Position numbers and translations under genes: made by a program
Assembly (NCBI GenBank): GCA_030685015.1
Contig: JAUXWS010000043.1
Span: 72,682-136,681 of the forward strand
From: a bacterium
GTDB lineage: Bacteria > CAIWAD01
DNA: 64,000 bases
Direction of reading: 5' to 3'
The notes under the pieces: generated by a model
The model's database searches: none
Told to the model about the DNA's origin: nothing
The model's input: only the letters and a program-made list of their open reading frames with translations
In this document: positions 18,358-42,567 of the stretch, piece after piece
How the letters are laid out: each line of letters starts with the position of its first letter
Position numbering within the stretch: position 1 is the first letter of the stretch

Positions 18358-18487
18358 CGGCGCTCCTTTTGCGGCTTGATCACGAATCATGGCTCCCGGC
18401 CAATGCCCACATGATAGAAACCAATGGACGGAAGTACCTTGCGCGGGCGGGAGACAGCCCGACCCCCATCACCAACCCGGAGGCTCC

Positions 18488-20371
18488 ATGGCGACCTGGC
18501 TGCTGAAAGGACTGTTTTTCACGGCACTGACCCTCCTGGCGGCCTGGCTCTTCTGGCGGGAGCTGTCCCGTCGGTTGGCCGCCCTGCGCCGGGCGCGCGG
18601 ACCGCTGCCCCGGGATCGTCCGGAGCGCCGCTGGGCCCGGGTCCTGCGCGAGGTGCTTTTCCAGACGAAGGTGATCCGCCACCGGCCCCTGCCCGGCCTG
18701 GCCCATGCCTTGCTGGTATGGGCCTTCGGCGCCTACTTCCTGGAGACGCTGGACCACTTGAGCAGGATCTGGCAGCCCCGTGGCTTCCTGCCCGATCAGG
18801 GCCTTTTCCATGTCTTGTTTCACGGACTGGTCGCCGTCTTCGCCTGGGCCGCCGCCGCCGGCATCATCGTGCTGGCCGTCAGGCGCTTTGTCCAGCGCCC
18901 GGTGGAGCTGGGCCGCAACCTGTCCTGGTCCAGCGGCGCCGTCGCCCTTTTCATTCTGCTTCTCATGTTGACCTACCTGGCCAGGCATCACGGCTGGGTG
19001 CCCGACCAGGGACCCAGGGCGGAGCTGAACTGGAGCCTGCACACGATCGTGCTGCTTGCATTTCTCGTGCTGATCCCCCGCTCCAAGCACCTGCACCTGG
19101 TCCTGGGCCCCTTTGCCGTCTTCCACCGCAACGAGACCCCGGGCGAGCTGGCGCCCCTGGACTTCGAGCGCGAGGAGATGGGCGTGGACACCTTGGCCGG
19201 GCTGGGCCAGGCCAACGCCCTGGCCTTGTTCGCCTGCGTCGAGTGCGGCCGATGCATGGAACACTGCCCGGCCACGCAGTCGGGCAAGGCCCTGGATCCC
19301 AAGGAGCTGGTCCTCCGCATGCGGGATGGTTTCCTGACGGACCCGGAGCAGCCCGCGGTCGGGCCGCAGGTGCCGGAGGATTGGCTGTGGCAGTGCACCA
19401 CCTGCGGTGCCTGCGCCGAGCAGTGCCCCACCGGCAACGATCAACCCCTCAGCATTCTCGAGTTCCGGCGCGGCCTGACGAGCGAAGGGCGCTTCCCCGA
19501 CACCCTGCGCACCCTCTTCGACAACCTGGAACGCAGCGGCAACCCGTGGCGCCACGCCGCGGTCGATGCAAGCGCCTTCCTGCGCGAGGCGGGCATACCC
19601 CTGCATGACGGCTCACAGAAGGTCCTCTATTGGATGGGTTGCATGGCGCGCTACGATGAGGCTTATCGTCGCGTGGCCCTGGATTTTGTCGCGATCCTGC
19701 GCGCCGCCGGCGTGGACTTCGCCGTGCTCAAGGACGAGAAATGCACGGGTGACGCCGCCCGCCGGGCAGGCAACGAGTTCCTCTTCCAACAATTGGCCAT
19801 GGAGAATGCCGCCCTCATCAACGAGGCGGCCCCCGACCTGATCGTCTCCACCTGCCCCCACTGCATCCGCAGCCTGGACGAATACAAGTCCTTGCCGGAC
19901 GAGATGCGGCTGCTGGATCGGCCCATCCTGCACCACAGCCAGTTCATCCGCCAACTGATCGAGCAGGGACGCCTGCCCTTGTCCACGACCCATGGCGCTC
20001 CGGTTCAGGACCTGGCCTACCACGACCCCTGCTACCTCTCCCGCTACGTGGATGAAGGGGTGGACGCTCCGCGCGAGGTGCTGCGCGGCGCCGGTGTCCG
20101 CGTGCGCGAGGCGGAGCGGCATGGACGGCGCAGCTTCTGCTGCGGGGCGGGTGGCGCCCAGCTCTTCATGGAGGAGCGCGAGGGGCGGCGGATCAACCAC
20201 ATCCGCACGGAGGAGCTGCTGGACACGGGAGCCGGGACCGTCTGTGTCTCGTGCCCCTTCTGTCGCACCATGATCAAGGATGGCATGACCGACAAGGGAC
20301 GCGGGGATCTTCCCGTGCTGGACCTGGCCCAGGTGGTGGCCCGCTCCCTGGGCAAGGCGGCGGATGTGTAA
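18488..20371 (+). CDS. Membrane Fe-S oxidoreductase, ETF:menaquinone oxidoreductase type
   Basis: 627 residues. The N-terminal 205 residues hold five to six predicted transmembrane helices with His residues in them, resembling a NarI/cytochrome b-like module. Two [4Fe-4S] motifs follow: Cys250/253/256/260 (CVECGRCMEHC) and Cys303/306/309/313 (CTTCGACAEQC). Two heterodisulfide-reductase CCG domains come last, the first starting at Cys385 and the second ending FCCGAGGAQ. This layout matches EMO-type enzymes known from Geobacter, which pass electrons from ETF to menaquinone. ATG 18488 is set by GGAGG five bases upstream; the longer frame lacks a site. etfBA lies just beyond on the other strand, supporting the role. 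Confidence 0.85.
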   Translation: MATWLLKGLFFTALTLLAAWLFWRELSRRLAALRRARGPLPRDRPERRWARVLREVLFQTKVIRHRPLPGLAHALLVWAFGAYFLETLDHLSRIWQPRGFLPDQGLFHVLFHGLVAVFAWAAAAGIIVLAVRRFVQRPVELGRNLSWSSGAVALFILLLMLTYLARHHGWVPDQGPRAELNWSLHTIVLLAFLVLIPRSKHLHLVLGPFAVFHRNETPGELAPLDFEREEMGVDTLAGLGQANALALFACVECGRCMEHCPATQSGKALDPKELVLRMRDGFLTDPEQPAVGPQVPEDWLWQCTTCGACAEQCPTGNDQPLSILEFRRGLTSEGRFPDTLRTLFDNLERSGNPWRHAAVDASAFLREAGIPLHDGSQKVLYWMGCMARYDEAYRRVALDFVAILRAAGVDFAVLKDEKCTGDAARRAGNEFLFQQLAMENAALINEAAPDLIVSTCPHCIRSLDEYKSLPDEMRLLDRPILHHSQFIRQLIEQGRLPLSTTHGAPVQDLAYHDPCYLSRYVDEGVDAPREVLRGAGVRVREAERHGRRSFCCGAGGAQLFMEEREGRRINHIRTEELLDTGAGTVCVSCPFCRTMIKDGMTDKGRGDLPVLDLAQVVARSLGKAADV

Positions 20372-20476: not shown

Positions 20477-20499
20477 TCGAAGCCATTGTCCAGCTTCGA
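20477..20499 (+). promoter_or_regulatory. Palindromic candidate enhancer site upstream of the sigma54 promoter
   Basis: A perfect 7-bp inverted repeat, TCGAAGC and GCTTCGA, separated by 9 nt. It is centred about 78 bp before the predicted start site, which is where activators of sigma54 promoters usually bind. A second, overlapping repeat (TCGAT at 20463-20467 and ATCGA at 20476-20480) adds to it. The cognate activator is unknown. Confidence 0.5.
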
Positions 20500-20539
20500 C
20501 TTCACCACGGGAACAAAAGATGCAGGCGGGCGTTTGAGG

Positions 20540-20555
20540 TGGCACGCTTGTTGCA
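20540..20555 (+). promoter_or_regulatory. Sigma54 (-24/-12) promoter
   Basis: TGGCACG-CTTG-TTGCA matches the RpoN consensus at every conserved position. The GG (20541-20542) and GC (20553-20554) are exactly 10 nt apart. Transcription should start near 20566. The only thing downstream before a strong terminator is about 140 nt with no ATG, so it seems to drive a non-coding RNA. Confidence 0.85.
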
Positions 20556-20565
20556 AAAGCAAGCA

Positions 20566-20703
20566 GCGTCAAGGGCCGAGGCCCGGCAAGGGTCCAAAGC
20601 CTGAGACATCCGCCTACCCAACCCTCTCTGTATAGCTGTGTGTGACGCGACAGCCGTTGACAAGCCCCGTCAACGGGAAGGGCCCCACCCCGGGGCCCTT
20701 TTT
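20566..20703 (+). ncRNA. Predicted sigma54-dependent small RNA
   Basis: The interval from the predicted start (20566) to the terminator T-tract (20703) contains no ATG on the plus strand and no plausible ribosome binding site. It has a GTG-rich but codeless 5' half, then three successive hairpins: GCTGT/ACAGC (20635-20654), an 8-bp perfect stem CCGTTGAC/GTCAACGG (20654-20676, sharing one base with the previous), and the terminator. It lies between the Fe-S oxidoreductase (ends 20371) and etfA (opposite strand, ends 20735), so it could act in cis or in trans on ETF or other nitrogen/energy genes. No known RNA family is recognised. The 20372-20539 stretch ahead holds no gene, only the candidate activator sites. 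Confidence 0.65.
20678..20703 (+). terminator. Rho-independent terminator of the small RNA
   Basis: Stem GGGCCCC (20680-20686) pairs with GGGGCCC (20692-20698), loop of 5, followed by TTTTT. Two A residues before the stem can pair with the first T residues. The T-tract is only on the plus strand, so it serves the plus-strand RNA and not etfA. Confidence 0.88.
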
Positions 20704-20734
20704 GTTTCCGCTTGCCCATCATGGAAGGGTTGTG

Positions 20735-21679
<945 letters not shown>

Positions 21680-41956: not shown

Positions 41957-42567
41957 TGAACTCCATCCTTAAGTTGAGCGCGAATGTGCCGGATCGCCCG
42001 GAAGGCGAGGATCTTGACAGTTCCATCCGGCATGTCGAAGATCTCCGAAATCTCCTTCACCTGCATCCCATGCTGGTAGCGAAGGCAGAAGATCAGTCGC
42101 TGCTTTGCGTTCAAGGTTTCAACCGCCCGCCAGATTTTTTGCAGCCGCTCCGTTTTACCCCGATCCTGTTCCCGCCCGTCCCCGTTCAAGCCGTGCACAT
42201 GGATGGTCCGCTCCAGCCATTCATCATCCTCCTCTCCTCCCTCCAGCGGCGTGGCGTGGAGTTTTTCGCGACGACTCCGCTGGTCATGCCAGGTCAGGCA
42301 GCGGTTCACGGCAATGCGATACAGCCAGGTGTAGAAACTGGATTCCAGGCGGAAGCGCTTGATTCCCAAATAGACACGGATGAAGACCTCTTGGAACACA
42401 TCCGCCGCATCCTCCGGATTCCGGATAAGAGAGCGGATGAGTCCCATGATCCTCCGCTCATAGAGGCGCATCAAGCGCTCAAAGGCGGCGTGGTCCCTTT
42501 CCTGGACCAGACGAATCAGTTCCTGTTCATCCATTTCGCAAGTGATGTCTTCCTGATGGTCAGCCAT
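41953..42567 (-). CDS. ECF-type RNA polymerase sigma factor
   Basis: 204 residues from ATG 42567, region 2 with ERLMRLYERRIMGLIRSLI and EDAADVFQEVFIRVYLGIKRF, region 4 with LNAKQRLIFCLRYQHGMQVKEISEIFDMPDGTVKI. There is a longer open frame starting from a TTG, which has no family likeness. The operon sigma-anti-sigma-outer-membrane protein-DUF4097-like suggests a sigma regulating its own envelope unit. The stop overlaps the anti-sigma start by 4 nt. Autoregulation is inferred from the arrangement. Confidence 0.88.
   Translation of the reverse strand: MADHQEDITCEMDEQELIRLVQERDHAAFERLMRLYERRIMGLIRSLIRNPEDAADVFQEVFIRVYLGIKRFRLESSFYTWLYRIAVNRCLTWHDQRSRREKLHATPLEGGEEDDEWLERTIHVHGLNGDGREQDRGKTERLQKIWRAVETLNAKQRLIFCLRYQHGMQVKEISEIFDMPDGTVKILAFRAIRHIRAQLKDGVQ

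Follow-up and report, generated by a model that had tools for sequence, protein, structure and literature searches.

Stand-alone small RNA (sRNA) genes that combine a -24/-12 promoter, an upstream activator site and an intrinsic terminator are known from the Proteobacteria, where they include Qrr, CrcZ/CrcY and GlmY/GlmZ; Qrr and CrcZ depend on Hfq. To our knowledge, sigma54-driven sRNAs have been described mainly in Proteobacteria, many of them with Hfq. In Campylobacter jejuni, where flagellar genes are also sigma54-dependent, the sigma54-controlled sRNA CJnc230 (FlmE) arises chiefly by processing of the flgE mRNA (PMC11187230). Gram-positive bacteria have C-rich, Hfq-independent sRNAs such as RoxS/RsaE and IsrR; literature on C-rich motifs and the Shine-Dalgarno sequence includes papers on RoxS (PMC10433868) and IsrR (PMC9410917).

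Two energy-metabolism genes flank the locus described here, which very probably encodes a real and previously undescribed small regulatory RNA. The locus occupies a 363-nt intergenic gap on contig C43 of a 3.6 Mb draft genome, within the window analysed (the whole stretch of 64,000 nt), between a 4Fe-4S oxidoreductase gene and etfA (Table 1). The initial annotation of this DNA had called the upstream gene an ETF-quinone oxidoreductase, which we refine to a CCG-domain 4Fe-4S oxidoreductase, presumably of the ETF:menaquinone oxidoreductase type; its assignment of etfA stands, the gene being convergent with the RNA. Its central claim, that a sigma54 promoter drives a non-coding RNA here, is supported by the conservation of promoter and RNA and by the presence of rpoN and enhancer-binding protein (bEBP) genes, and judged from sequence we consider it highly likely. 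The predicted product is a stand-alone sRNA gene of ~140 nt, whose transcript would run from ~20566 to ~20706.

Table 1. Features of the RNA locus, its neighbours and a second sigma54-driven RNA. Coordinates are those of the window unless a contig or locus is named.
Feature	Position	Strand	Remarks
CCG-domain 4Fe-4S oxidoreductase gene	18389-20371	+	Upstream neighbour of RNA
7-bp inverted repeat TCGAAGC-N9-GCTTCGA	20477-20483/20493-20499	.	Centred ~78 bp before predicted start
Candidate activator (bEBP) site AAGCCATTGTC	20480-20490	+	Overlaps palindrome 20477-20499
Sigma54 -24/-12 element TGGCACGCTTGTTGC	20540-20554	+	Full consensus; 10 consensus positions kept in 3 genomes
Predicted start (~20566) and variable 5' leader	20566-20617	+	Start predicted from promoter, 12 nt after GC
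Conserved, mostly unpaired core CAACCCTCTCTGTATAGCTGTGTGTGACGCGACAG with C/U-rich CCCTCTCT	20618-20652	+	97-100% identical, 3 genomes
Conserved hairpin CCGTTGAC-N7-GTCAACGG	20654-20661/20669-20676	+	8 perfect pairs, kept in 3 genomes
Intrinsic terminator, stem AAGGGCCCC/GGGGCCCTT and T-rich tail	20678-20686/20692-20700, to 20707	+	Perfect 9-bp stem
etfA	20735-21679	-	Convergent with RNA
Second sigma54 RNA	G000 C67, L057:1290-1489; -24 element 42164-42178	-	Orthologs L220:290-481 (-), L246:1155-1350 (+)

The sigma54 promoter and regulon

The promoter proved to be as first annotated, a full-consensus element with exactly 10 nt from GG to GC, and it is the single match to TGGCAC-N5-TTGC in the window, the other matches to a looser pattern being TGGCC variants. 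Across the source genome (G000) the strict -24/-12 pattern occurs at 23 sites, against two for a reversed-pattern control, and the same excess appears in four relatives (for instance 29 versus 8, 23 versus 3 and 29 versus 5). Given the 23 to 2 ratio, about 9 in 10 strict sites are expected to be real, an expectation of ~90% for a site from this set before conservation is counted. Most of the 23 lie a short distance upstream of plausible gene starts, and the genes behind them, named by reading their translations, encode exported proteins, DnaK, flgB-like and flgF/flgG-like rod components and short conserved peptides; one site (L058), inside a long open frame, looks like chance. Searches for the regulatory proteins found rpoN in the genome and 20 matches to the sigma54-activator domain, roughly 14-17 of them strong (14-20 matches per genome across the genomes).

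The regulon itself shows several features. The sequence TGTTCAAnTYCGG lies upstream of several sigma54 promoters (L020, L048 4047, L057 1501 -, L062), mostly those of exported proteins, and as a shared sequence is a candidate binding site of one activator; it is limited to this subset of promoters, and no convincing motif common to all sigma54 upstream regions was found. A dnaK-like gene (named from its translation) stands behind a full sigma54 promoter in the source genome, in both same-genus relatives (G001, G002) and in the sister genus G003 (L040, L217, L242, L274), such a promoter being unusual for a chaperone gene. Directly behind sigma54 promoters (L056, L212; L057 1501 -, L246 497 +) are also encoded short conserved peptides (~36-50 aa) whose C-terminal half is hydrophobic (..SSPxFL..).

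The palindrome and the candidate activator site

Upstream of the promoter, the 7-bp palindrome reported at first is present, but its arms are not conserved, whereas an overlapping 11-nt block is. Both same-genus relatives carry different short inverted repeats at this position, and the 369-bp region that includes the palindrome contains several other perfect 7-8-bp pairs, so the palindrome alone is unremarkable. G000 and G001 share the block, AAGCCATTGTC, without a mismatch and at the same 59-nt spacing (AGCC to -24), and G002 keeps it in part, while the DNA flanking it is near background identity; this pattern points to a likely enhancer-binding-protein site. The 10-mer AGCCATTGTC, considered as a regulon-wide activator site, occurs in three copies in G000 and eight in G001 and was ruled out in that role, a full-consensus sigma54 promoter lying downstream only at the RNA locus in these two genomes.

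Conservation and structure of the RNA

The locus was compared among the source genome, the same-genus genomes G001 (CAIWAD010000288) and G002 (DYSB01000204), the sister genus G003, and G004. The conservation of promoter and RNA that the initial annotation had proposed to seek in close relatives was found in both same-genus genomes, which keep the entire cassette (promoter consensus and spacing, core, hairpin and terminator). Identity among the three genomes is a mosaic: 42-51% far upstream, 28-51% from the candidate activator site to the promoter, 67-93% in the promoter (all ten consensus positions kept), 34-48% in the leader, with length changes, 97-100% in the core and 91-96% in the hairpin. 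Such a mosaic is the pattern expected from selection on the promoter and on the 3' half of the RNA.

The core comprises 35 nt (CCAACCCUCUCU..UAGCUGUGUGUGACGCGACA), and in the predicted folds its CUCU is mostly unpaired in all three RNAs, the wider C/U-rich stretch being unpaired in two. The earlier claim of two further hairpins holds in part: the hairpin at 20654-20676 is real and conserved, but the leader fold is not conserved. This hairpin has no compensatory change among the three genomes, and base-pair covariation is nearly absent because only three genomes are available. The strong intrinsic terminator was also read correctly; its stem, 10 bp in G001 and G002 through one extra G-C pair, is followed by TTTGTTT and places the RNA end near 20706. 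A simple terminator scanner missed 20678-20707, its stem rule probably absorbing the T run via A-T and G-T pairing. Compared with shuffled sequence, the 3' half folds more favourably in each of the three genomes (z -3.2 to -3.9); for the full-length RNA of the window the advantage is only modest (z -2.1).

A small peptide was ruled out, since 1-2-nt indels in core and hairpin remove any shared frame; there is also no conserved start, and the interval 20566-20703 contains zero ATG, as had been stated.

A covariance-model search of the phylum (five genomes) found a single good copy in each genome of the genus, with no convincing copy in G003 or in G004 (67% complete); weak matches in G002 and G003 are unrelated sequence. 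In the sister genus G003 the two flanking genes are the same, but just a plain terminator separates them, and the RNA is absent at the locus. Across 84,980 species an 18-nt core was found only in the two relatives and in three matches from unrelated lineages, the latter without the rest of the element, and it was not found in viral contigs. A covariance search of Rfam gave no match at gathering score, Qrr, CrcZ and GlmY/GlmZ included, and a relaxed search stayed far below threshold (best BjrC68, 17.2 bits against 39), in agreement with the first impression of no known family. The RNA very probably represents a new family, of a functional kind (the sigma54-dependent sRNA) that is already known.

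Other sigma54-driven transcripts

A second ORF-less sigma54 transcript of ~190 nt, on contig C67, is conserved in the same three genomes. Its fold is rod-like, with z = -6.0 in one tested copy and -7.0 in the other; six of its pairs show double-sided changes, and it also has a C-rich hairpin loop and a terminator. It matched no Rfam family above threshold. A conserved inverted repeat flanks its sigma54 promoter in all three genomes, with GAAGCCCATTCG on the upstream side and CGAATGGGTTTC on the downstream side (L057 minus ~2123, L220, L246 ~1129), and CGAATGGGTTTC forms the 5' end of the RNA.

On contig C59 (L054:1501-1695; G000:C59:113205 +) a full sigma54 promoter just after a bEBP gene has no evident gene behind it and a 9-bp terminator ~185 nt later. 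This transcript is possibly a third sigma54 RNA; no ortholog was found among the strict sigma54 sites in relatives. We suggest only tentatively that several dedicated regulatory RNAs of this genus, for which the Hfq search was negative, form a set under sigma54/bEBP control: the sRNA described here, the C67 RNA and perhaps the C59 transcript. They would belong to undescribed families and act by Hfq-independent pairing or protein binding.

Proposed function and alternative explanations

The reading that we favour, as probable rather than assured when taken whole, is of a genus-specific, sigma54/bEBP-controlled, trans-acting sRNA that pairs through a C/U-rich, anti-Shine-Dalgarno-like seed. RNA polymerase with sigma54 would bind at 20540-20554, and a bEBP, probably bound near 20480-20490, would turn the promoter on, giving an RNA from ~20566 to ~20706. 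Function would reside in the 3' half, where the hairpin and terminator come after a C/U-rich stretch that is largely unpaired. Here CCCUCUCU (and perhaps GUGUGUGACGCG) may pair with purine-rich ribosome-binding sites on mRNAs from other loci and so lower translation of these targets while the activator is on, without Hfq. The C/U-rich core is complementary to such purine-rich sites. Hfq (PF17209) had no match in G000-G003, control genomes being positive as expected, and this negative result in four genomes makes Hfq-independent pairing of the C/U-rich seed the likely model.

Transcription, the activator site, the base-pairing action and its targets are all inferred. Near-perfect complements of the RNA were not found outside its own locus, no AGAGAGG-before-ATG (anti-Shine-Dalgarno) target was common to all three genomes, and complements in the leaders of the sigma54 regulon were below control. 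An isocitrate/isopropylmalate dehydrogenase-like gene has an AGAGAGG-before-ATG site in two of the three genomes, which a conserved Shine-Dalgarno sequence explains equally well. The lack of a conserved mRNA target, and a core that is invariant throughout and not just over a short seed, would also suit a sigma54-driven RNA that binds a protein or another RNA (a sponge) and does not pair with ribosome-binding sites. Another sigma54-driven transcript does hold UCACACAC, complementary to GUGUGUGA, but eight such bases occur fairly often by chance and this transcript was not detected in the relatives; nor does the RNA visibly repeat a binding motif in the way that CsrB or CrcZ does. We regard this explanation as unlikely, though less so than the other alternatives.

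The neighbouring genes invite explanations of a more local kind. The suggestion that the RNA tunes electron-transfer genes found no support beyond adjacency, and the sister genus has the same two genes side by side and lacks the RNA. Action in cis on etfBA, by antisense pairing with a read-through 3' end or by polymerase collision, would fit an RNA transcribed toward etfA, a convergent layout seen in G000 and G001, and the etfA strand, the minus strand, has no good terminator here, offering the same GC-rich stem with no T run. However, action in cis leaves the invariant 35-nt core and the free leader unexplained, and adjacency is unproven in G002 because the etfA contig ends 86 bp beyond the gene without the RNA element; we consider it improbable. 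The conserved block might instead derive from the upstream oxidoreductase mRNA, as its 3' UTR and terminator processed to a stable RNA, with the sigma54 site secondary, for no other terminator-like site is present from the end of that gene at 20371 up to 20678. Against this the -24/-12 element is conserved while the neighbouring DNA is not, which makes a 3' UTR origin very improbable. Finally, the plain terminator between the same two genes in the sister genus could suggest a chance promoter beside an ordinary shared terminator, with no RNA gene at all, yet three diverged genomes retain the promoter along with the core and the hairpin, and we give coincidence almost no weight.

Significance and relation to known systems

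A sigma54 sRNA with comparative support, from a sparsely sampled lineage in which Hfq was not detected, would add riboregulation to a sigma54 regulon that there otherwise covers flagella, dnaK and exported proteins. The gene, whose ends, promoter and seed can be predicted, is a concrete and testable object, and the companion structured RNA on C67 suggests a pattern rather than a single case.

In its intergenic gene layout, promoter, candidate activator site and terminator, the RNA resembles Qrr, CrcZ/CrcY and GlmY/GlmZ, but it shares no sequence or Rfam match with them, comes from an unrelated lineage and is found where no Hfq was detected. Like CJnc230 it is a sigma54 sRNA in a genome with sigma54-dependent flagellar genes; unlike CJnc230, it has its own sigma54 promoter and is not part of a flagellar operon. 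The resemblance to the C-rich, Hfq-independent Gram-positive RNAs RoxS/RsaE and IsrR would be one of working principle only, that of a C/U-rich stretch which is accessible and complements ribosome-binding sites; the RNA described here differs from them in sequence, promoter class and lineage, and its pairing is a proposed one.
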